The notes below the pieces were generated by a model. That model was given only the letters and a program-made list of their open reading frames with translations, was not told the DNA's origin and made no database searches. The translations under genes and the position numbers were made by a program. This document shows, piece by piece, positions 3,988 to 16,280 of a stretch of DNA of 58,239 bases (positions are counted from its first letter, which is position 1; each line of letters begins with the position of its first letter). This stretch comes from Planctomycetota bacterium (lineage in GTDB: Bacteria > Planctomycetota > Phycisphaerae > Sedimentisphaerales > Anaerobacaceae), in contig JADFMM010000007.1 of NCBI GenBank assembly GCA_022563885.1, positions 1-58,239 of the forward strand, read 5' to 3'.

Positions 3988-4920
3988 ATGCGGATCGACA
4001 ATCCATTTCACGAAGGCGAGATTCAAGTGCAGAAACGTGCCGGCGAATTCGCAGAAGCGCAGCGCAACGGTCGTATGCTCGCCGATTCGATCATGAGGGG
4101 CGCCATGACATTCGTGGCCCAACAGCCGATGGTCATTCTGGGCAGCGTCGATGAAGGCAAGGATGTATGGGCCTCGGTGCTGTTCGGCCCGCCCGGGTTT
4201 GTGAGGGCGACCGACGAACGCCGGCTCGAGTTCGATCTGTCACACGCCGGCATCAACGAACATGACCCGTTTTGGGAGAACATTCGGCACAATCCACGGA
4301 TCGGCGCCCTGCTGATCGAGTTGGCCACCCGCCGCCGGCTTCGGATCAATGGGACCGTCGCTCGTCCCGTATCTGATCGCCTTACGCTCGATGTCGCGGA
4401 GAGCTATCCAAATTGTCCGAAGTACATTCAACGCCGGCAGGTTCAGTTCGAGGCCGCAGATCGATCGGAGCGTGTCCTTGCCGCCGCTGATGGACACTTG
4501 CTCAAGCGCGAACAGGTCGCGCTGATTGAGGCGTCGGACACTTTCTTCGTCGCCAGCGCCCATCCGCAGCGCGGCGTGGACGCGTCGCACCGCGGCGGAT
4601 TGCCGGGCTTCGTGGAGGTTCTCGATAGAGGGACGCTGCGAATTCCGGACTACGTGGGCAACAGCATGTTCAATACACTCGGTAACTTCATGGCCGACCC
4701 ACACGCTGGACTCCTGTTTCTGGACTTTGAGGGGAGCCGGACGCTGCAATTGACCGGCCGCGCCGAGATCCTTTGGGACCGGGAAGACCCAGTGGATCGC
4801 ACTGGCGGGACACAACGCTTCTGGACGCTCCGGATTGACCGCTGGCGTGAATCGGCAATCCACGCCGGGCTACGCTGGGAGTTCGTCGACTACTCGCCGC
4901 ACCACCCGCAGCCGTCGTAG
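3988..4920 (+). CDS. Pyridoxamine 5'-phosphate oxidase-fold flavoprotein
   Basis: 310 residues; the ATG at 3988 is preferred over in-frame upstream codons because AGAAGG lies six bases before it. Two PNPOx-like split-barrel halves can be seen: the first includes VILGSVDEGKDVWASVLFG and a DPFWENIRHNPRIG segment, the second DTFFVASAHPQRGVDASHRG and NSMFNTLGNFMADPHAGLLF. This two-half arrangement is known from FMN/F420-binding PNPOx-like proteins of unassigned substrate. It follows trxA by 178 bases and could be in the same transcript. Whether it binds FMN, haem or another cofactor cannot be told from sequence. Confidence 0.8.
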   Translation: MRIDNPFHEGEIQVQKRAGEFAEAQRNGRMLADSIMRGAMTFVAQQPMVILGSVDEGKDVWASVLFGPPGFVRATDERRLEFDLSHAGINEHDPFWENIRHNPRIGALLIELATRRRLRINGTVARPVSDRLTLDVAESYPNCPKYIQRRQVQFEAADRSERVLAAADGHLLKREQVALIEASDTFFVASAHPQRGVDASHRGGLPGFVEVLDRGTLRIPDYVGNSMFNTLGNFMADPHAGLLFLDFEGSRTLQLTGRAEILWDREDPVDRTGGTQRFWTLRIDRWRESAIHAGLRWEFVDYSPHHPQPS

Positions 4921-5207
4921 ACGACGTCACTCGCCCATCGAGGGCGCCTGCTCCGGACACGGCGAAGGGATCCTGGCGAGTGTTACTGGCGATCCCCTAC
5001 CGCAGTTCAGTAAATGACAAATCCCGCCGGCATACTCGATAGGGCTTCCTGGGCATGAATGAACATCAAGAGTGGGGAGGGTGACTGTGACACCCAAGGC
5101 AAGATCCCTGGTGCCCCTTGCGTTCATGTCCCCCTTGAGTCGTCGTCTCCAGTCACGGTGTAATCACCCGTATCGGTGGAAATCAAATTCCCTATCAGTC
5201 ATTTCTT
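4921..5207. other. Intergenic, no gene seen
   Basis: No convincing reading frame. A short GAAATCAAATTCCCTATCA motif at about 5181-5199 resembles stretches near 16310 and 18126. The region ends at the second copy of the duplicated promoter module. Confidence 0.4.
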
Positions 5208-6699: not shown

Positions 6700-7551
6700 A
6701 TGCAAACGAGAGCTATCGACCCAAACAGACCCAATACCACTGTGCAACTGTGGCTTCCCCTAAGAGCCCAGGCTAAAATACACCGATTTGTGTTTAGCCT
6801 GCTCTGTCTGCCTATCTTTATGGGTACCGCGGTACGGGCCCAGGATTTCGATCAGACACACTCTGGGTTCGACACGGTTCTGAAGACTTATGTAGAGAAT
6901 GGTCAAGTGGACGATGCGGGTCTGAAAAGAAGTCGTAGGGAACTGGACCGCTACTTATCCAGCCTGGCCGCGGTCGACGAAAAGGAGTTCAAGACCTGGC
7001 CGACGACCGACCGTCTGGCGTTCCTGGTCAATCTCTACAACGGGGCGACGCTAAAGTTGATCGTCGACCACTATCCGGTGAAGAGCATCAAGGATATCGG
7101 CGGCTTCTTCAGGGGGCCCTGGAAACAGCGCGTCGTGATATTGTTTGGCAAGACCATTACGCTCAACACACTGGAACACGAGATTATCCGCAAGCAGTTC
7201 GACGAGCCGCGTGTCCACGCCGCGCTGGTGTGTGCCGCCCAGGGCTGCCCGCCCCTGCGTCCGGAGGCCTACGTCGGTGCCCGTCTGGAGGCGCAATTGG
7301 CCGAGCAGATGCGGACCTTCCTGGCGGACTCGACCAAGAATCATGTGGACGTCAGGTCCGGCAAGATATGGCTGTCGCGGATCTTCAAATGGTACGGCAA
7401 GGATTTCACCAAGAACGGCAAGACTCTGCTCGGTTCATTGGCACCTTACTGGCCGGAACAGGCAGCCGCCCGGCTCAAATCCCGTCGTGACTGGGACATT
7501 GCTTACACGGACTATGACTGGTCCCTGAATGAAAGGCAGGTAGGGAAATAA
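6700..7551 (+). CDS. DUF547 exported protein
   Basis: 283 residues. Two ATGs (6694, 6700) follow AAGGAGG; 6700 has the better spacing. A hydrophobic segment near residues 27-46 ending in VRAQ is probably a signal peptide with a long N-region. The rest is DUF547, recognised by LVNLYNGATLKLI, NTLEHEIIR, VHAALVCAAQGCPPLRPEAY and FKWYGKDF. The VCAAQGCPPL segment keeps the conserved cysteine pair. Function is unknown for the family, but DUF547, TVP38/TMEM64 and a MerA-like flavoprotein commonly occur together. The stop overlaps the next start (TAATG). Confidence 0.85.
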   Translation: MQTRAIDPNRPNTTVQLWLPLRAQAKIHRFVFSLLCLPIFMGTAVRAQDFDQTHSGFDTVLKTYVENGQVDDAGLKRSRRELDRYLSSLAAVDEKEFKTWPTTDRLAFLVNLYNGATLKLIVDHYPVKSIKDIGGFFRGPWKQRVVILFGKTITLNTLEHEIIRKQFDEPRVHAALVCAAQGCPPLRPEAYVGARLEAQLAEQMRTFLADSTKNHVDVRSGKIWLSRIFKWYGKDFTKNGKTLLGSLAPYWPEQAAARLKSRRDWDIAYTDYDWSLNERQVGK

Positions 7552-8282
7552 TGGAAGCGACAACGATCCTACAAAAAGCCAAGCGTAGCCGTCTGATCGT
7601 CAAAGTGGTCCTGGCGGTCGTCGTGATCGCCGGAGTGGTGGTGGTCACCCGATTCATTGACTTGCAGCAGATCTTTGGCAATGCCCTGGACTGGATATCC
7701 GGCCTGGGACCGACCGGCCCCCTGGTCTTCGTCCTCCTGTACATCCTCGCCTGTGTCCTGTTGCTGCCGGGATCCCTCCTGACCCTGGGAGCCGGTGTGG
7801 TGTTTGGGGTGATCGAGGGATCGGTGGTCGTTTCGGTGGGCTCGACCCTGGGCGCGACCTGCGCATTTCTGGTAGGGCGCTACCTGGCCCGGGACTGGGT
7901 GGGTGCCAAGATCGCCGGCAATGACAAGTTCAAGGCCATCGACGAAGCCGTGGCGGTAGAGGGCTGGAAGATCGTCGGACTGACCCGGCTGTCTCCGATC
8001 TTTCCATTTAACCTGCTCAACTATGCCTTCGGATTGACCCAGGTCAAACTCAAACACTACCTCATCGCCTCGTGGCTGGGGATGATGCCCGGAACGATCA
8101 TGTATGTGTACATCGGTTCTCTGGCGGGTGATCTCGCCAGCCTCGGTAGTGGCGAACGCACACGCAGCACGGGTGAATGGATCCTCTACGGCATTGGCCT
8201 AGCGGCCACCGTCGTGGTCGCCGTGTTTGTCACACGCATCGCCAAGAAGGCCTTGGATACCCGCGTTGCATCTCAATCCTAA
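7551..8282 (+). CDS. TVP38/TMEM64-family membrane protein
   Basis: 243 residues with about five or six hydrophobic segments. The family core is clear: LPGSLLTLGAGVVFG, then GSTLGATCAFLVGRYLARDWV and RLSPIFPFNLLNYAFGLTQV, ending with SWLGMMPGTIMYVYIGSLAG. Members belong to the DedA/VTT superfamily of inner-membrane proteins implicated in lipid or ion handling. Start overlaps the DUF547 stop, indicating translational coupling. Confidence 0.9.
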   Translation: MEATTILQKAKRSRLIVKVVLAVVVIAGVVVVTRFIDLQQIFGNALDWISGLGPTGPLVFVLLYILACVLLLPGSLLTLGAGVVFGVIEGSVVVSVGSTLGATCAFLVGRYLARDWVGAKIAGNDKFKAIDEAVAVEGWKIVGLTRLSPIFPFNLLNYAFGLTQVKLKHYLIASWLGMMPGTIMYVYIGSLAGDLASLGSGERTRSTGEWILYGIGLAATVVVAVFVTRIAKKALDTRVASQS

Positions 8283-8309
8283 GGGCGCCAAATGAAGGAG
8301 AGACTTACC

Positions 8310-9842
8310 ATGTCGGATAGCAAGCAGGAAAGCACGTTGATCAGTCCCTGGGACAAGCACAACGAGGAACTGGTTTCCCTCGTTCATCCCTCCGATTGGA
8401 CGAATCCCAAACCCGCCGCACGCTACGATCTGGTTGTCATCGGCGGCGGTACCGCCGGGCTTGTGACCGCGGCGGGAGCCGCCGGTCTAGGCGCCAAAGT
8501 CGCGCTGATCGAAAGACACCTGCTGGGCGGGGACTGCCTGAATGTGGGGTGTGTACCGTCCAAGGGGATTATCGGCAGTGCCCGCCGCGCCGCTGCCGTA
8601 CGCGATGCCGAGGCGCTGGGAATCTCCGGTCCGGCCGCCAAGACACCCGATTTTGGCCAGGTCATGGAACGGATGCGCCGACTGCGGGCCGCCATAGCCC
8701 CCAATGATTCCGCCCAGCGCTTCCGCGATCTGGGGGTCGATGTATTCTTGGGCCAGGGTCGGTTCGTGGATGCCAAGAGCATTGCGGTGGATGGTGAAAC
8801 CCTGCGTTTCAAACGCGCCGTCGTCGCCACCGGAGCCCGAGCATCCGCGCCGGCCATTGCGGGACTCGATACGGTCCCCTACCTGACCAACGAAACCCTG
8901 TTCTCGTTAACGGAACGCCCGCAGCGACTCGGCATCATCGGCGCCGGCCCCATCGGCTGCGAGATGGCACAGGCCTTCGCCCGGCTCGGCTCCGAGGTCT
9001 TTCTGGTGGAAGCGACGCACGGCATACTCCCGCGCGAAGACCGGGACGGCGCCGACATCGTCCGGGACGCCCTGCAGAAGGATGGCGTGAGACTGCTGTG
9101 CTGCGGCAAAGAGCTGACCCTTTCCTCTGCTGACAGAGGAAGGGTGCGGCTGCGTGTCGAATCGCACGGCCAGGGATACGACGAGGTGGTGGATAAACTG
9201 CTGGTGGCCGCGGGAAGGGCCCCGAATGTAGAAGGATTGGACCTGGAAAACGCGGGTGTCGCGTTCAACAAGAAGGGTGTCCAAGTGGACGATCGCCTGC
9301 GTACCACCAACCGGAAGATCTTCGCGGCAGGCGACATCTGCTCACCCTACCAGTTCACCCACGCCGCCGACTTCATGGCCCGCATCGTGATACAAAATGC
9401 GCTCTTCTTCGGTCGTGCCAAGGTCAGTGCCCTCACGATTCCCTGGTGCACCTACACCGAGCCGGAAATCGCCCATGTGGGTCTCTATGAAAAACAGGCC
9501 GAGGAGAAGGGCATGACGATCGACACCTTCACCCAGGAATTTCGTGAGGTCGATCGATCGATCCTGGAAGGCGAGACCGACGGTTTCGTTCGTGTCCATG
9601 TACGCCAGGGCACCGATGTCATCGTCGGGGCCACCATCGTGGGTGCGGGGGCCGGCAACTTGATCTCCGAGATCACGCTGGCCATGACCCATGGGCTTGG
9701 CCTCAAGAAGATCGCCGCAACCATCCACCCCTACCCCACCCAGGCCGAAGCCATCCGTCGTGTCGGCGATCAGTACAATCGAACCCGCCTGACGCCTCGG
9801 ACCAAGGCACTGTTGTCGACCATGATCAAATGGCAACGCTAA
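8310..9842 (+). CDS. MerA-like pyridine nucleotide-disulfide oxidoreductase (not a true mercuric reductase)
   Basis: 510 residues from the ATG at 8310, chosen over 8292 because AAGGAG sits between the two. FAD site GGGTAGL near residue 47, redox disulfide GGDCLNVGCVPSK, NAD site GAGPIGCEMA, second FAD motif AAGDIC and the dimer-interface HPYPTQAEAIRRVGD are all present. It resembles MerA and lipoamide dehydrogenase, but the C-terminus ends in STMIKWQR without the vicinal Cys pair that delivers Hg(II), and the N-terminal metal domain is absent. It therefore belongs to the dihydrolipoamide-dehydrogenase-like group usually found beside TVP38 proteins. The substrate is unknown; a low-molecular-weight disulfide is plausible. 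Last gene of the sigma-54 series. Confidence 0.9.
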   Translation: MSDSKQESTLISPWDKHNEELVSLVHPSDWTNPKPAARYDLVVIGGGTAGLVTAAGAAGLGAKVALIERHLLGGDCLNVGCVPSKGIIGSARRAAAVRDAEALGISGPAAKTPDFGQVMERMRRLRAAIAPNDSAQRFRDLGVDVFLGQGRFVDAKSIAVDGETLRFKRAVVATGARASAPAIAGLDTVPYLTNETLFSLTERPQRLGIIGAGPIGCEMAQAFARLGSEVFLVEATHGILPREDRDGADIVRDALQKDGVRLLCCGKELTLSSADRGRVRLRVESHGQGYDEVVDKLLVAAGRAPNVEGLDLENAGVAFNKKGVQVDDRLRTTNRKIFAAGDICSPYQFTHAADFMARIVIQNALFFGRAKVSALTIPWCTYTEPEIAHVGLYEKQAEEKGMTIDTFTQEFREVDRSILEGETDGFVRVHVRQGTDVIVGATIVGAGAGNLISEITLAMTHGLGLKKIAATIHPYPTQAEAIRRVGDQYNRTRLTPRTKALLSTMIKWQR

Positions 9843-9871
9843 TAAAAATACCAATAAATGCCCCAAAACCC

Positions 9872-9903
9872 TAAACCCTGTAGTATGGTACGGGCTGTAT
9901 ACT
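9872..9903 (+). promoter_or_regulatory. MerR-type operator and stretched promoter
   Basis: An imperfect dyad ACCCTGTAGTATGGTACGGG (starting at 9875; arms ACCC.GTA / TAC.GGGCT) lies just upstream of a TATACT -10 box at 9898-9903. A weak -35-like TAAACC (9872-9877) is 20 bases upstream, the overlong spacing that MerR-family activators correct by DNA distortion. It sits 18 bases before the merR start, so merR and the genes after it are probably autoregulated from here. Confidence 0.65.
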
Positions 9904-9920
9904 TGGCAGAAGCATCAATA

Positions 9921-10346
9921 ATGGAGACCAAGATCGAATCATTGACCATAGGTAAGGTGGCACGGCTCGCCGAGATTGGCGTAGAAACAATGCGGTTCTA
10001 CGAGCGGGAGGGACTGATCGAGTCGCCCCCTCGGCGGGCGTCAGGTTATCGGCAATACCCAAGCGATACGGTAGACCGTGTGCGGTTTATCAAGCGCGCC
10101 AAAGCACTCGGTTTCTCGCTCAGGGAGATCAAGGAGCTTCTCTCGTTACGCGCGGCTCCCCGCACCAAGTGTACCGATATCCGTCAGCGGGCACTGCGGA
10201 AGATCCAGGACATCGACGAGAAAACCGACACCTTGCGCCGGATGCGCAAGGCCCTCACCAAGCTGGTGGCAGAGTGCGAAGGAAGTCGGCCGGTTACCGA
10301 ATGCCCCATCCTGGCATCCCTCAGCACGCAGAAGGAGAAACCATGA
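9921..10346 (+). CDS. merR: Mercury-type MerR transcriptional regulator
   Basis: 141 residues. N-terminal winged helix-turn-helix with TIGKVARLAEIGVETMRFYE and GYRQY, then the dimerisation helix. The metal-binding cysteines are Cys84, Cys119 and Cys128. Their spacing (35 and 9) equals that of Cys82, Cys117 and Cys126 in Tn501 MerR, and the last is followed by PILASL as in MerR (CPLIASL). This favours Hg(II) over copper, lead or zinc as the inducer; the assignment rests on spacing alone. Upstream in-frame codons fall inside the operator, so ATG 9921 was chosen. The stop overlaps the next start (ATGA). Confidence 0.9.
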   Translation: METKIESLTIGKVARLAEIGVETMRFYEREGLIESPPRRASGYRQYPSDTVDRVRFIKRAKALGFSLREIKELLSLRAAPRTKCTDIRQRALRKIQDIDEKTDTLRRMRKALTKLVAECEGSRPVTECPILASLSTQKEKP

Positions 10347-11263
10347 GTACCCGCCAAATCTCCTTGAGAACCCGTATTGACCCAAAAACACTCTGCCCCT
10401 CTTGTGATAGCAAGGGTCGTGCGGTGAAACCGGTCACCATCGAATCCCTCGTGATCGAAGCGGCTCGGGCGCGGGTGGGGCGAACGGATGGCTTCCGGTT
10501 CTGCGCCGAGCCGTCCTGCGAGGTGGCCTACTTTCATCCGGAGACCGGAGACCGCTTCCTGCGCCGCGACGTGAAGGTCCGCATCGGTCAAAAGGAAACC
10601 ACGCCACCCCGCCCCGTTTGTTACTGTTTCGACCATACGGTCGAAGAGATCGAGGATGAGGTGGCGAGAACGGGCCGCTCCCGCATTCCTGACCAAATTC
10701 AGGAGAAATGTCGAGAGGGGCTAGATCGGTGCGAGGAAACCAACCCCCAGGGTGCCTGTTGTCTCGGCAACGTGCGCCGCACGCTGAAAGAAGCGCAGGC
10801 CCAGGTGAATCGGGGCGCACCGGTCGATGCGGTGGTCACGCAGGAATCGAATGAGACAGAGGAGGATGGTTGCGCCATGAATACGAAAACCCTCGTTTGC
10901 CCTACCTGTGGCTGTTCCCTCGTCAGGCTGGGAGTCAACAGGGATCAGGCGCCCACGACTCGCTGGAACGATGAAGAATTTCGTTTCTGTTGTCGGGGCT
11001 GCGCCGACCTGTTCGTGACTGACCCAAGGAGATTCATCCGGGAAACGAATGATTTGATCGTATGCCCAACCTGCCTGGCGGAAAAACCACAGAAGTTCGC
11101 CGTCAAGGTTGAAGTGGCCGGACAGGAAGTGCATTTCTGCCGCTGTCCATACTGTGTGGAAGCCTACAGGAAGGATCCTGACTATTACCTCAAACGTTTG
11201 GAGGGCGTCATCCCTTATGAGGGCGTGCTGGGGCATGAAGGATGTTGCGTCAGGCCCGGGTAA
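10343..11263 (+). CDS. CopZ-like iron-sulfur / YHS-type cysteine-rich metal-binding protein
   Basis: 306 residues, very cysteine-rich, with no signal peptide, so cytoplasmic. The N-terminal half (CPSCDSKG, FRFC, then CYCFDHTVEEIEDEV and GACCLGN) resembles the [2Fe-2S]/zinc N-terminal domain of archaeal CopZ and bacterioferritin-associated ferredoxins. The C-terminal half, from an internal Met at 10878, holds two YHS/TRASH-like units: CPTCGC with FRFCCRGCADLF and DPRRF, then CPTC with HFCRCPYCVEAYRKDPDYY. This looks like a fusion of a metallochaperone with metal-sensing or metal-trapping domains. Overlap with merR and the following merC suggest intracellular handling of a thiophilic metal. Confidence 0.75.
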   Translation: MSTRQISLRTRIDPKTLCPSCDSKGRAVKPVTIESLVIEAARARVGRTDGFRFCAEPSCEVAYFHPETGDRFLRRDVKVRIGQKETTPPRPVCYCFDHTVEEIEDEVARTGRSRIPDQIQEKCREGLDRCEETNPQGACCLGNVRRTLKEAQAQVNRGAPVDAVVTQESNETEEDGCAMNTKTLVCPTCGCSLVRLGVNRDQAPTTRWNDEEFRFCCRGCADLFVTDPRRFIRETNDLIVCPTCLAEKPQKFAVKVEVAGQEVHFCRCPYCVEAYRKDPDYYLKRLEGVIPYEGVLGHEGCCVRPG

Positions 11264-11297
11264 AAACCTATTCACCAATAGAAATGAGATTAAGATA

Positions 11298-11726
11298 GTG
11301 AACCAACCTTCAAGTAAACATAAGCGGACGGGCCGGTGGCGAAGTTTCCTGCCGATGGCACCGGGCATTGGTGTATCTCTGTTGCCGGTGGGCCTTTGTC
11401 CAGCCTGTTGGCCGGCTTATGCGGGCTTACTGAGTTCGCTCGGATTGGGATTTCTGGGCGAACGGACTTATTTGCTCCCCTTAACGATTCTATTTCTGAT
11501 CGCAGCGGTCTGCTCGCTATATTACCGAGCACGCACACGGTGGGGATACGGTCCGTTTGTGGCAGGATTGATTGCGTCGATAATGTTGTATGTGGGCAAG
11601 TTTGTGCTGCATTCCAATCCGATGCTTTATGTGGGCGTTGCTTTACTGGTGGGGGCCTCGCTTTGGAACGCCTGGCCGGAGAGGAGGTCTCAAAATACAT
11701 GTTGTCCGGGACCAGACAAAGCGTAA
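11298..11726 (+). CDS. merC: MerC-family mercury transport protein
   Basis: 142 residues if GTG 11298 is used; ATG 11235 and ATG 11355 are other possible starts. Four hydrophobic segments. The family signatures are the intramembrane CPACWPAY near the N-terminus (MerC has CAACFPAL), LGLGFLGE, the later LMYVG-like MLYVGVALLVGASLWN and a terminal Cys-rich tail (NTCCPG). MerC carries Hg(II) across the inner membrane through the paired cysteines. No MerP or MerT is present; the exported CxxC proteins encoded downstream could take the MerP role. Confidence 0.85.
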   Translation: MNQPSSKHKRTGRWRSFLPMAPGIGVSLLPVGLCPACWPAYAGLLSSLGLGFLGERTYLLPLTILFLIAAVCSLYYRARTRWGYGPFVAGLIASIMLYVGKFVLHSNPMLYVGVALLVGASLWNAWPERRSQNTCCPGPDKA

Positions 11727-12556
11727 TCCGTGATTTGCCTCTACCTCTATTGTGGGCCATAACCCTGCTGACGATGGTGATCAGCACAAAGGGGTGGGCA
11801 CACGAGCCGGTGTTCAGCATGGGTCCAGAGACGATCTGGCAAGGCGGTGTCGGCATTGAAACGGAGTTCGAGTTTGCGGATGAAGGAGGCGAAGAATTGA
11901 GCGTGTTGCACTATGAGATCCTCTACGGCCTTACGAAAGATTTATCGCTCACCTTGGAGGTGCCACAGATACTTGATCGCCAAGCAGAGGGCGAAACAGG
12001 AGATGGCCTTGGTGATGTCGAAGTCCGGGCTAAATACCAATTCTTCAAGAAGGATATGCTCAATGCCCAACACAAGATAACCGGCATCTTTGGGATCAAG
12101 GTCCCCACCGGTGACGACGAAGCGGACCCACCGCTGGGCACCGGCACGACGGAGTTTCCGTTCGGGTTGTCCTACGGATACGAATCACGGACCTGGTACC
12201 ACTTTCTCACGACCCTCTACCGGCTACGCACTGAAAGCGGAAACAGCGACCCCGGCGACCGGTTATTTATCAATGGGGCGGTCGGCTACCGCCCGGTCCA
12301 GGGCGAATACACCGATCCGGATGTCGTCTTTTTCCTGGAGATGAACGCTGAGTTCGAATTCAAGGATGAACTGCGCGGAACGCGTCTGCCCAACACTGGC
12401 GGCAATACGATCTGGCTCGGCCCTACCACGCTGGTCTCCCCCAATCCCCAGTGGATGTTCAAAACCGGCATCCAGTTTCCGATCTATGAAAATCTCAATG
12501 GCCACCAGGAGCATAGTGAGTTTCGCGCGAGCTTTGGCATTGAACACCATTTCTAG
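11699..12556 (+). CDS. Outer-membrane beta-barrel-like protein
   Basis: 285 residues; ATG 11699 overlaps the merC end and is preceded by GGAGG. An N-terminal signal peptide (LLWAITLLTMVISTKGWA) is followed by alternating amphipathic strands and the C-terminal aromatic FGIEHHF typical of barrels. Segments such as YEILYGLTKDLSLTLEVP and GLGDVEVRAKYQFF recall the MetA/phenol-degradation-type outer-membrane family. There is no TolC-type helical domain. It may be the outer-membrane route for the metal handled by this operon; the family assignment is tentative. Confidence 0.7.
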   Translation: MLSGTRQSVIRDLPLPLLWAITLLTMVISTKGWAHEPVFSMGPETIWQGGVGIETEFEFADEGGEELSVLHYEILYGLTKDLSLTLEVPQILDRQAEGETGDGLGDVEVRAKYQFFKKDMLNAQHKITGIFGIKVPTGDDEADPPLGTGTTEFPFGLSYGYESRTWYHFLTTLYRLRTESGNSDPGDRLFINGAVGYRPVQGEYTDPDVVFFLEMNAEFEFKDELRGTRLPNTGGNTIWLGPTTLVSPNPQWMFKTGIQFPIYENLNGHQEHSEFRASFGIEHHF

Positions 12557-12589
12557 AGTTTATGGAGCACGATTTCTGGGAGTATAGCT

Positions 12590-13420
12590 ATGATTAACAG
12601 ACGGTATTATGCTCTTTTGGCATTTGTCATGTTGACAACTGTTTCGATGGTACATGGCCATGTCCAGCAAGTCACCTTGCGTGTCGATGGCCTGGCCTGC
12701 CCATTTTGTGCTTTCGGGCTCGAAAAGAAGATCAAGAAACTGCCAGGGTACGACTCGCTGCATTTTTTGATCAACGAAGGCAAAGTCATTGTGGGATGGC
12801 GTGATGATCAACCGCTAGACCTAAAGGAGATTGACAAGGCGGTGGATAAGGCAGGATTTACCCTGCGTGGCGTGACCGGAACCTTTATCGGCACGATCTC
12901 CAGAGGTAATAAAGGAGAATTGTACCTTGATCTTATAGAACCTGTAGAGCAACGCTTACACCTCGATATGCCTAAAGACAAGCGGCGGATCAAAACCAAG
13001 AAAACGGATCAGATTCAATCTACGCCACAGCCTCTTCGCGAAAGGCTCGAAGGTCTATTAACGCAGGGTAATCTGGTTGAAATCACTGGCAAGGTGGAAG
13101 GGCACTCTAAGAACAAAGTACTCCTAAATCTAAGTATTAATAGTCTTGCCATTGTGTCACCTCCAGAGGAATTTGGCTGCAAGGTTATCAGCAGGGTCGA
13201 GAATCTCGTCTGCAGTAGGTGTGTAACCCGAGTTGTTCGAACATTTATGCCATTGGAAGATGTTCTCCACATACAGGCAGATCATCTTGAAGATGAGATA
13301 CAAATCTGGACCCAATCAGAAAAGCCAAATCTGATGAGGCTACGTGACCGGATCGAGCTGCTTGGTTTTAAGGTTGAGCAGATTCGAGTCCAAAAAGAAA
13401 AAGAGGATCAGAAGAAATAA
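12590..13420 (+). CDS. Exported protein with two heavy-metal-associated (CxxC) domains
   Basis: 276 residues with a signal peptide of about 23 residues ending HG. The N-terminal domain carries GLACPFC (Cys37, Cys40) in an HMA-like context (LRVDGLACPFCAFGLEKKI). The middle, about residues 95-190, has beta-rich segments (GTFIGTISRGNKGELYLDL, NLVEITGKVEG) that could form an OB-like fold. A second HMA-like domain has VCSRC (Cys208, Cys211), then EDVLHIQADHLEDEIQIW and a Lys/Glu-rich tail. It probably binds a soft metal outside the cytoplasm, like a two-site MerP or CopZ. Its paralogue is two frames downstream. GC is lower than in neighbouring genes. Confidence 0.75.
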   Translation: MINRRYYALLAFVMLTTVSMVHGHVQQVTLRVDGLACPFCAFGLEKKIKKLPGYDSLHFLINEGKVIVGWRDDQPLDLKEIDKAVDKAGFTLRGVTGTFIGTISRGNKGELYLDLIEPVEQRLHLDMPKDKRRIKTKKTDQIQSTPQPLRERLEGLLTQGNLVEITGKVEGHSKNKVLLNLSINSLAIVSPPEEFGCKVISRVENLVCSRCVTRVVRTFMPLEDVLHIQADHLEDEIQIWTQSEKPNLMRLRDRIELLGFKVEQIRVQKEKEDQKK

Positions 13421-13485
13421 CTGTTTCACCTGGGTAGCATGCATGCAGACGATTCAGTTGATTTGAGCCATTAAGAGATGTAAAA

Positions 13486-13665
13486 ATGAAACTACAAATT
13501 ACTACAATTATTCTATTGTTGCTGCTCGGTTCATCCGGACATGCAATCGTCGAATCACCGCGGGAAGTTGTCGTTAAGGTTGACGGCATGTTCTGCTCAT
13601 TTTGCACGTTTGGAATTGGGAGCTGCAGGGCTGGGTCAATCCCTTTGATCGGAGAATGGATATGA
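13486..13665 (+). pseudogene. Truncated third copy of the two-HMA exported protein
   Basis: 59 codons: a signal peptide (ITTIILLLLLGSSGHA) and the start of an HMA domain with DGMFCSFCTFGIG, where the intact neighbour reads DGLACPFCAFGLE. After that Gly the similarity ends and the frame closes at TGA 13663-13665, overlapping the ATG of the next gene. It looks like an internal deletion that fused the start of one paralogue to the leader of the next. It may still be translated as a small secreted CxxC peptide. Confidence 0.65.
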
Positions 13666-14507
13666 AACTCATAGAAGGTTTTCTCGTGTGCGGCGTGACA
13701 TTTGTGGTGTCGCAAGCATTTGCAGGCGAATCAAAAGGCAGCACCGACCCTGTGGTCCAACTCGGCGTCGAAGAAGTCCGTGTCAACGTGAAGGGACTGG
13801 CTTGTCCCTTCTGCGCCTACAACATCGAAAAGCGGGTCAAGAAGCTGGACGGAGTCGATCGAAAGGCACCCTTCAACGTGTCTCTCGAAAGAGGGGTAGC
13901 CTCATTCACATGGAAGCCATCTATCCCTTTTGGCCCCAGTGTCGTCAACGAGCAGGTCAAAAAGGCAGGATTTACTCCGGGGACGATCGACGTCACCGTC
14001 TCCGGGCACTTGTCGTTCAAAAGATCTGAAACCCATGGAGAACAGGGGCAGATCGCATTGCACCTGCCGATGACCCATCAGAATGTTGCCATTTCCGCCT
14101 CGAAACGAGCAGATCGTGTGGAGAGCTATGCGCTCTTGCTGCGAAAGGCCAAGCACCTTCAAGGCAATTCTATGTTCGCCGTACGCATTCGAGCCACTGT
14201 CCTTGAGGAAAAACGGTCGTGGAAGCTGAAACTGAAGCGCTGGGAACCCTTGTTTTACGGGGCGAGGGTCGTTATTGACGTGGAGACCTTCGCCTGTGAG
14301 CGTTGTGCGACCGGAGTGATGCGCTCCCTGATGGAACTTGAAGGTGTCATTCACGTGGAGGCCGATCACGAAAAGAATCACGCTGTTGTTTGGACGACCG
14401 AGGCTAAGCCGAGAATTGAATTGTTGAAGAAAACGGTGGTGGGCGCCGGCTTCAAAGTGACTCAGGTAGAAGTGCTTCCCAAAGCAACGGGGAGCCAAGG
14501 TGGATAG
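13662..14507 (+). CDS. Exported protein with two heavy-metal-associated (CxxC) domains, second paralogue
   Basis: 281 residues; signal peptide of about 21 residues ending QAFA. Same architecture as 12590-13420: GLACPFC at Cys48/Cys51, a beta-rich middle (GTIDVTVSGHLSF, FAVRIRATVLEE) and a second domain with ACERC at Cys212/Cys215 followed by GVIHVEADHEKNHAVVW. Both paralogues keep Cys pairs in both domains, suggesting both sites are used. The start overlaps the truncated copy and the end overlaps the NHL gene, so the three are translationally linked. Confidence 0.75.
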   Translation: MKLIEGFLVCGVTFVVSQAFAGESKGSTDPVVQLGVEEVRVNVKGLACPFCAYNIEKRVKKLDGVDRKAPFNVSLERGVASFTWKPSIPFGPSVVNEQVKKAGFTPGTIDVTVSGHLSFKRSETHGEQGQIALHLPMTHQNVAISASKRADRVESYALLLRKAKHLQGNSMFAVRIRATVLEEKRSWKLKLKRWEPLFYGARVVIDVETFACERCATGVMRSLMELEGVIHVEADHEKNHAVVWTTEAKPRIELLKKTVVGAGFKVTQVEVLPKATGSQGG

Positions 14508-15456
14508 CTTGACTACGCGCCCAATGCCCATTCTCATCGTTGTTTTCGCCGCCATTTTTCTGGCCTTGTGTTCGCTTCTGTCCTGCGGACAACGCCCCCG
14601 CAGTGCATCTTTGACTGCGACGTGGAGTCAAAGCATCAAAACGGATGCATTTCAAGAAACCACCGGTGTGGCACTCTCCAATAGCACTCTGTTTGTCAGC
14701 GACTCGAAACAGGCAACCATCTATCGACTCAGTGTTGACGGCAGCGCCAAGAGCCAATGGCCCAAGAGACCAGACGTCATGGGAAGGCCTACTCATATCC
14801 ATTTCGGACGGGATGGGAGGCTCTACGTTCCGGATCATCTTGAGGATCGCATCTGGGTGTATGGGGAAGACGGCAGCCTTGTTCTGACCCTGGGCGAGCA
14901 CGGCACCGGCAATGGACAATTCGACTCCCCAGCCGGGGTTGCCGTTGCAGAGGATGGGTCGATCTATGTCGCGGATTTCAACAATCATCGCATCCAACAA
15001 TTCGATCACTCCGGAGGTTTTGTTCGAGCTTGGGGAAAGAAGGGACATCATCGGCCGGGAAGCCTTAACTACCCCACCGATCTTGCCATTGGTCCGGACG
15101 GCAACGTGTATGTCGCGGACGCCTACAACCATCGCATTGGGGTCTTCACGCCCACCGGCAAGCATCTCAGAACGTGGGGTGGAAAAGGTCATGACGCCGG
15201 AGAGTTCGACGTCGCAGTGGGTATCGCTGTGGATAGGCAAGGACGCGTGTATGTCGCCGACCAGTTCAATCACCGTGTTCAGGTATTCACCGCCGAAGGC
15301 CGGTGGCTGGGCATGTGGGGTAGGGCCGGCAACAAGCCGGGAGAATTCGACCGTCCCAACGACATTGCCATCGGGGCGGATGGGCGTGTGTATGTCGCGG
15401 ATTTTGGAAACGCTCGTGTCCAAGTGTTCATGATCGGAAAGGGAACCGAGCAATGA
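14500..15456 (+). CDS. NHL-repeat beta-propeller lipoprotein
   Basis: 318 residues from GTG 14500 (ATG 14524 is the alternative). A hydrophobic leader ends in LLSCGQ, a lipobox with the Cys as lipid site. The mature part is an NHL propeller with the repeated pattern G-x-F-D-x-P-x-G-[VI]-A-[VI] followed by VYVAD and HRIQ/HRVQVF; at least five blades are visible (e.g. DFNNHRIQQF, DAYNHRIGVF, DQFNHRVQVF). Such domains bind proteins or ligands; no catalytic motif is seen. It overlaps genes on both sides by 8 and 4 bases, tying it to the metal-protein block. Confidence 0.85.
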   Translation: MDSLTTRPMPILIVVFAAIFLALCSLLSCGQRPRSASLTATWSQSIKTDAFQETTGVALSNSTLFVSDSKQATIYRLSVDGSAKSQWPKRPDVMGRPTHIHFGRDGRLYVPDHLEDRIWVYGEDGSLVLTLGEHGTGNGQFDSPAGVAVAEDGSIYVADFNNHRIQQFDHSGGFVRAWGKKGHHRPGSLNYPTDLAIGPDGNVYVADAYNHRIGVFTPTGKHLRTWGGKGHDAGEFDVAVGIAVDRQGRVYVADQFNHRVQVFTAEGRWLGMWGRAGNKPGEFDRPNDIAIGADGRVYVADFGNARVQVFMIGKGTEQ

Positions 15457-16280
15457 CGCAGTTTCAAAACAATAGATCCTTGTCGATGGCGTTCCTGCTG
15501 GGAGCCATTGGATCGTACTCTGTTGCCGTGGGTGCGGGTCTCAACACAGATGTGGCACTATCGCCGCCTGAAGGCGGAACCATCTTCAGGCTGCAATGGC
15601 GCTATTCCAAATTATCGAATGACCCCACACCGATGGACCGAGATGTTACCTTGAGCATTAATCCACTGACGATCGTTCATGGCTTAACCGCAGACCTTGC
15701 AGTGTTGGGAACCGTTCCATTCGTTTACCGAGAGATGGAACCCGCCGCAGGAGCTGTTATGGAAGACGCCGATGTCGGTGACATTCCGCTCCTGTTCAAG
15801 TATCGGTTCTATCAAAACGACCAGCTCGGTGTTACGACAAGATGGGCTGTTCTGGGAGGTGTTGAGATTCCCTCCTACGATGAAGATTTTTCGAGTGAGA
15901 GTTTCGATCCAATCATCGGCACGGTGTGGACACACCAGCGCAGAGACTGGTGGGTGGATTGGGATGTGGTGTACAAGTTCAACACGGCCGGCGGGCCGAC
16001 GGGAGACGACGTACTGCGGGGCGACACCGCCGCCTCAATCAGGTTCCTCGGCGGCGAAAGCGAAGAGACCGGCCCATGGGCACTCTACGGGATCGGTGAA
16101 CTCAATGCGCTTTACATCACCGATGGAAGCACACAGATGTTCCTTTCGCCCGGCATTCAGTTCATAACGCCTCGGTGGATTCTGGAGGCCGGGGTTCAAT
16201 TGCCTGTCCACCAAGACCTGAAATCCTCACGGCTGGAAAACGACATTACCACCATTCTCAGCCTGAGAACTCAGTTTTAA
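15453..16280 (+). CDS. Second outer-membrane beta-barrel-like protein
   Basis: 275 residues; ATGA overlap with the NHL gene. A weak signal sequence (SMAFLLGAIGSYSVAVGAG) precedes strand-rich sequence with the same layout as 11699-12556: LTIVHGLTADLAVLGTVPFV and DVGDIPLLFKYRFYQ parallel the TKDLSLTLEVP and GDVEVRAKYQFF segments there, and it ends LSLRTQF with a C-terminal Phe. Two related barrels thus bracket the HMA genes. It is the last gene of the block; no terminator was seen after it. Confidence 0.68.
   Translation: MTQFQNNRSLSMAFLLGAIGSYSVAVGAGLNTDVALSPPEGGTIFRLQWRYSKLSNDPTPMDRDVTLSINPLTIVHGLTADLAVLGTVPFVYREMEPAAGAVMEDADVGDIPLLFKYRFYQNDQLGVTTRWAVLGGVEIPSYDEDFSSESFDPIIGTVWTHQRRDWWVDWDVVYKFNTAGGPTGDDVLRGDTAASIRFLGGESEETGPWALYGIGELNALYITDGSTQMFLSPGIQFITPRWILEAGVQLPVHQDLKSSRLENDITTILSLRTQF

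Follow-up and report, generated by a model that had tools for sequence, protein, structure and literature searches.

How might a bacterium handle mercury with a gene run that has the regulation and transport of a mer operon and yet lacks mercuric reductase (MerA)? The question is raised by a block of genes on the plus strand, positions 9869-16280, of a 58,239-nucleotide stretch of DNA (the window) from contig JADFMM010000007.1 of a Planctomycetota bacterium. This contig is C129 of a metagenome-assembled genome (MAG) of 6.5 Mb in 470 contigs with 96% completeness; below, G-numbers denote compared genomes, L-numbers loci and C-numbers contigs of the own assembly. The prepilin-type genes that flank the block and the names attached to its nearest CopZ-N matches also suggest Planctomycetota. 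On balance, the sequences lead us to favor, with some reserve, the reading that the block is a rare, horizontally assembled, MerA-less mer variant for the trafficking and sequestration of Hg(II) or of a thiophilic metal like it. Mercury is assigned by association, but consistently: gene neighborhoods elsewhere tie most parts of the block to mer genes.

A gene for a mercury-type MerR regulator, preceded by its own mer-like operator, heads the tight gene run. A preliminary description made from the sequence alone had placed cysteines 84, 119 and 128 of this regulator at the spacing of Tn501 MerR, and alignment to PDB 5crl (E 6e-28) bears this out, the three residues aligning with C82, C117 and C126. 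The operator dyad, CCCTGTAGTATGGTACGGG, has a chance expectation of 0.05 per window at three or fewer mismatches and lies between a putative -35 and a -10 hexamer that are 20 nt apart, within the 19-20 bp of mer promoters; the overlong spacing noted earlier therefore stands, though the -35 hexamer is only weakly matched. Relatives have a like dyad and spacing ahead of their merR genes, in some cases combined with a better -35 hexamer, such as TTGACTCCGTACCAAGGTACGGCGTCTATGCT in G362. When the dyad pattern of the clade was searched in the own genome, the operator at merR was the sole non-coding match; a second candidate, C221:1266, was rejected because it sits within a prepilin gene. Consensus promoter and terminator scans performed no better than shuffles.

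In a tree of 31 sequences, the window MerR groups with MerR proteins linked to MerC or to the envelope module described below (nine labelled rows on one side, support 93/86, a value that describes membership of the group and not the place of the window protein within it), and a larger group that includes Tn501 MerR has support 90/81. The 35/9 cysteine spacing is kept in full-length members of the clade, in a comparison that held no lead-sensor sequence, so the spacing is not established as exclusive to mercury. The closest relatives (52-57% identity) head clusters in G072, G051, G024, G122 and G037. In the first four of these, MerR is followed or closely accompanied by a thioredoxin-like protein and by a MerC domain that lies behind a DF domain in one fusion, and the same type of MerR precedes DF-MerC in a proteobacterial MAG that also encodes MerB and a MerA with CC at its C-terminus. 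The G037 cluster reads MerR, a membrane protein with a CC motif, a barrel, an HMA protein, a CopZN-MerT-HMA fusion and a thioredoxin-like protein. A single frame in G122 (L086:9424-10572) joins a MerR 52% identical to that of the window to an alkylmercury lyase (MerB) domain, with 112 bits to PF03243 and 188.7 bits to NF009710 (cut-off 193). In G002, a genome of the same genus, L124:347-1744 encodes a thioredoxin-like protein with a MerB-family match (PF03243, 65 bits) and cysteine-rich segments.

Directly after merR lies a gene for a protein with 24 cysteines in 306 amino acids, in which a CopZ-N domain precedes a double YHS/TRASH-like part (YHS2). The CopZ-N part scores 104.9 bits against NF047645, above its cut-off of 100, and matches the N-terminal domain of Archaeoglobus CopZ (PDB 2hu9) with a phmmer E of 3e-16; the YHS part reaches 23.1 bits against PF04945 (gathering cut-off 30.3), compared with 34.9 for its homologue in L025. 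G037 and G362 have CopZ-N in fusion with MerT, and two further MAGs of Planctomycetota (L022, L024) join it, on reading of the sequences, to a segment resembling MerT. YHS2 is found elsewhere beside a MerTP protein (L025), behind a flavoprotein (L026) and, on plasmid pMR68, behind MerB. The pMR68 copy (Pseudomonas sp. K-62; L036, ~4727-5080) is an open reading frame right after MerB that is absent from the gene table of the plasmid.

The next gene encodes a MerC-family protein with a CPAC motif within a hydrophobic stretch and a CC motif near its C-terminus. It exceeds the PF03203 cut-off and is 46-49% identical to the MerC domains adjoining the MerR genes of the clade, so that the block has a predicted inner-membrane mercury transporter of the kind represented by MerT, MerC, MerF or MerE. 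At E 1e-5, no plasmid relatives were found for MerC or for the double-HMA proteins.

The remainder of the block is an envelope module of two outer-membrane barrels, secreted double-HMA proteins and an NHL lipoprotein (Table 1). Gene calls agree with the set listed in the preliminary description, which had missed a truncated third HMA gene in the 241-bp gap between the two HMA genes; shortly ahead of HMA2, its frame departs from the HMA domain once CSFCTFGI has been read. Overlaps of 4-8 bases occur at four junctions, in keeping with the earlier remark that the genes mostly overlap or nearly do. A structure model of HMA2 gives two HMA-like folds, weakly (predicted local distance difference test, pLDDT, 56). 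The module recurs near mer genes. In G362 (L088), the first part of the locus, MerR, NHL, double-HMA and barrel, lies directly upstream of a mer operon made up of MerR, an EmrE-like protein, CopZN-MerT-HMA-HMA, another protein and a true MerA (514 bits, ending SCCAD). Barrel and HMA genes adjoin MerT in G349 and G516, in G349 within a MerA operon, and the NHL lipoprotein adjoins HMA and barrel not only in G362 but also in G079 (barrel-HMA-NHL). Mobility of the HMA-barrel pair is suggested by a Vibrio diabolicus plasmid (L129:5088-6732), on which a helix-turn-helix regulator, a GDCCVxC protein, an HMA protein and a barrel lie next to a Tn3 transposase.

Table 1. Features of the block and the neighboring flavoprotein gene, in window positions.
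Feature	Positions	Strand	Basis
mer-type operator/promoter	9869..9903	+	dyad 9876-9894; -35 TAAACC 9872-9877; -10 TATACT 9898-9903
MerR-family regulator, C84/C119/C128	9921..10346	+	Cys spacing, PDB match, tree
CopZ-N (Zn + [2Fe-2S]) metallochaperone domain with double YHS/TRASH-like domain	10343..11263	+	PF18423 60.8 bits; NF047645
MerC-family inner-membrane protein, GTG start	11298..11726	+	PF03203 35.4 bits (cut-off 27.6)
Outer-membrane barrel 1 (Phenol_MetA_deg-like), C-terminal Phe	11723..12556	+	PF13557 32.2 bits; 56% identity to G037 barrel
Secreted double-HMA protein 1 (CPFC ... CSRC)	12590..13420	+	PF00403, two stretches; 43% N-terminal match in G037
Truncated third HMA gene (signal peptide and start of HMA domain, CSFC)	13486..13665	+	sequence reading
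Secreted double-HMA protein 2 (CPFC ... CERC)	13662..14507	+	PF00403, two stretches; 40% full-length identity to G362 protein
NHL beta-propeller lipoprotein (LLSC lipobox)	14500..15456	+	PF01436 137 bits
Outer-membrane barrel 2, C-terminal Phe	15453..16280	+	66% identity to G362 barrel, a PF13557 member
Neighboring MerA-like flavoprotein, possible separate reductase, outside operon	8310..9842	+	NF004991 809 bits (cut-off 620)

The window holds no MerA with a C-terminal cysteine pair, as had been reported, and the genome-wide check that was then proposed also found no canonical MerA: no protein of the own genome exceeds the cut-off of the MerA model TIGR02053 (454 bits), the best scores being 378, 312 and 308 bits, and none of the three full-length matches ends in CC. 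A merA with the C-terminal vicinal cysteine pair was thus not found in the own genome, of which 4% is possibly missing, and neither MerB nor MerT has a match there. Because this defining feature is absent, the block is not classed as a reductive mer operon despite its mer-like regulation and transport. The five genomes with related MerR-led transporter clusters (G072, G051, G024, G037, G122) likewise have no MerA over the cut-off, and the C-termini examined among their best matches are without CC; canonical MerA is present in G362, G349 and G147. The claim that the block is a candidate new system consequently survives in part. A mercury-type (thiophilic-metal) operon without canonical MerA is supported, apparently in these five genomes as well, but the system is not new throughout, since on sequence its parts recur as mer modules, some beside true MerA, and MerA-less mer modules have already been described, as in Tn5563a (PMC4447125).

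A search of the literature yielded no described mer operon with the content of the block, and its exact gene order was found in no other genome examined. The conserved order that the preliminary description asked for is therefore seen as recurring modules, MerR-MerC and NHL-HMA-barrel, and not as a whole. The simplest reading of this distribution is that the block was acquired horizontally, which is suggested by the following: its GC content at third codon positions (GC3) is 0.48-0.63 compared with about 0.70-0.75 in many flanking genes; searches with HMA1 and MerR as queries did not find it in either of the two congeners covered; a full-length double-HMA protein occurs in only 2 of 397 genomes of the class; and barrel 2 is 66% identical between the own genome and G362, whereas their NAD synthetases are 47% identical. 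The contig is unlikely to have been mis-binned, as NAD synthetase identity drops from 66 through 61-59, 56 and 47 to 43% with taxonomic distance (no match was obtained in congener G001).

Several results weigh against a mercury-specific, MerA-less operon. The window MerR scores 138.5 bits against the Hg-MerR model TIGR02051, under its cut-off of 150.85, although this is its top score among all MerR-type models; relatives in the clade score 124-147 bits, and the Manganitrophus protein (L128) 151.8. This sister MerR, on a plasmid, adjoins P-type ATPases and not mer genes, so clade membership is no proof of mercury function. One of these ATPases (L128:7486-9882), which adjoins the MerR that passes the Hg-MerR cut-off, has the membrane motif YPCALG and, at either end, MerP-like HMA domains. 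The MerC-family protein reaches 29.7 bits against the NCBI equivalog NF033784, far under the cut-off of 140, and the AlphaFold model of barrel 2 failed (pLDDT 28). Because the genome is a MAG in 470 contigs, a MerA could sit in the missing 4%. Finally, import of Hg(II) without MerA by Tn5563a sensitized six of the tested hosts and made two more tolerant (PMC4447125), so a non-reductive system would require a strong sink. The CopZ-N/YHS2 protein and the double-HMA proteins are candidates for such a sink.

Reduction may nevertheless take place through the flavoprotein encoded at 8310-9842, in which case the block would supply uptake and relay within a reductive system that is split in two, as in cyanobacteria; we regard this reading as unlikely. 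The gene lies on the strand of merR and stops 78 bases short of it, and its product has the redox site CLNVGC and 50% full-length identity to a cyanobacterial plasmid protein annotated as mercuric reductase that has the same VTT neighbor. Against TIGR02053 it scores 378 bits, and it ends in KWQR without the C-terminal cysteine pair that defines MerA (PMC8261052), so that it fails the MerA test on both score and terminus. The preliminary description set it aside for the missing pair; the pair is indeed absent, but this is not decisive because cyanobacteria without canonical MerA reduce Hg(II) by a MerR-controlled MerA-like enzyme (PMC8261052, PMC6741143). In Synechocystis, the MerR protein Slr0701 controls Slr1849 upon exposure to HgCl2 (PMC6741143), and an Hg(II)-reducing cyanobacterial MerA-like enzyme is cited in PMC8261052; membership of Slr1849 in the family of the flavoprotein could not, however, be confirmed. 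No operator of its own was found for the flavoprotein gene, and many plasmids carry members of its family, often beside or fused to VTT, with no evident connection to mer genes. In the window (7551-9842), a VTT-domain protein precedes the flavoprotein, a pair that recurs on a Pseudanabaena plasmid; the two are fused in some Alphaproteobacteria, and in L024 a VTT gene likewise precedes MerR and CopZN-MerT.

In the relatives of CopZ-N that have been described, the domain is a copper chaperone, and the cognate metal could accordingly be a thiophilic ion other than mercury (Cu(I), Ag(I), Au(I), Pb(II) or Cd(II)), making the block a copper/silver-type trafficking operon. We consider this quite unlikely. 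The scores of the window MerR on copper, zinc and cadmium/lead regulator models fall within 16-36 bits of the mercury model, and the P-type ATPases beside the sister MerR fit such a role; yet that sister itself exceeds the Hg-MerR cut-off, the window protein has a third sensor cysteine at position 84 where CueR has serine (PMC9909328), and relatives show linkage to MerB, MerA, MerT and MerC. It is more improbable again that the block is a decaying accessory cassette, pieces of mer operons gained by transfer that are now without MerA and have little function. The truncated HMA gene, the absence from both congeners and the mosaic GC3 would suit decay, but the other eight genes are all intact with overlapping or close junctions, and the five related genomes retain MerR-led transporter clusters without MerA.

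If the block is a MerA-less mer variant, MerR binding Hg(II), or a soft metal that behaves like it, would switch the operon on. The barrels may pass the metal or metal-thiol complexes across the outer membrane, the double-HMA proteins would catch it in the periplasm, MerC would carry it inward, and the CopZ-N/YHS2 protein would take it over and retain it; the NHL lipoprotein probably serves the envelope module as an assembly part or scaffold. The net outcome would be buffering or sequestration and not volatilization, unless a separate reductase such as the adjacent flavoprotein completes the process. Only tentatively do we entertain the stronger version, a dedicated non-reductive mercury system spanning two membranes, in which paired outer-membrane barrels, an NHL lipoprotein and double-HMA relays import or expel CxxC-bound Hg(II), CopZ-N/YHS2 is the cytosolic sink and no Hg(0) is formed. 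Metal transfer to the outer membrane is a conjecture.

With the Tn501/Tn21 operon the block shares the MerR sensor cysteine spacing, the operator dyad between overspaced -35 and -10 hexamers and a MerC-family transporter, and its periplasmic HMA proteins stand in the place of MerP; it differs in being without MerA and in having CopZ-N/YHS2, two barrels and an NHL lipoprotein, none of which is in the generic operon (PMC3466566). Tn5563a merRTP is likewise a MerR-controlled Hg importer without MerA (PMC4447125), but is a deletion derivative of three genes only. The G362 locus shares the MerR-NHL-doubleHMA-barrel module, including the barrel noted above, and unlike the block continues with CopZN-MerT-HMA-HMA and canonical MerA. 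The Sulfolobus MerH/TRASH proteins also place a TRASH-type metal-trafficking domain next to mer genes, whereas here two YHS/TRASH-like domains are fused to CopZ-N and the TRASH proteins of the 2012 survey are stand-alone and archaeal (PMC3466566). The Zn and [2Fe-2S] site sequence is shared with the Archaeoglobus CopZ N-terminal domain, whose copper HMA partner domain is exchanged for YHS2 in the block and for MerT-HMA in relatives. Synechocystis Slr0701/Slr1849 resembles the block in a MerR-controlled Hg response without a canonical mer operon and in a MerA-like flavoprotein, but the cyanobacterial genes are unlinked and without merC, merP or merT (PMC6741143).

The 2012 survey of merA-flanking genes reported merC from no groups but Beta- and Gammaproteobacteria and TRASH proteins from no mer operons but those of archaea (PMC3466566); the loci described here extend these statements. 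They also link to mer loci several components that the generic mer operon of that survey does not show, namely barrels, NHL lipoproteins, double-HMA proteins and CopZ-N/YHS2 proteins, and surveys anchored on merA would overlook such clusters. About half of MerB-encoding genomes are without MerA (PMC8261052). The block and its relatives provide a concrete, testable gene set for mercury handling without canonical reduction.

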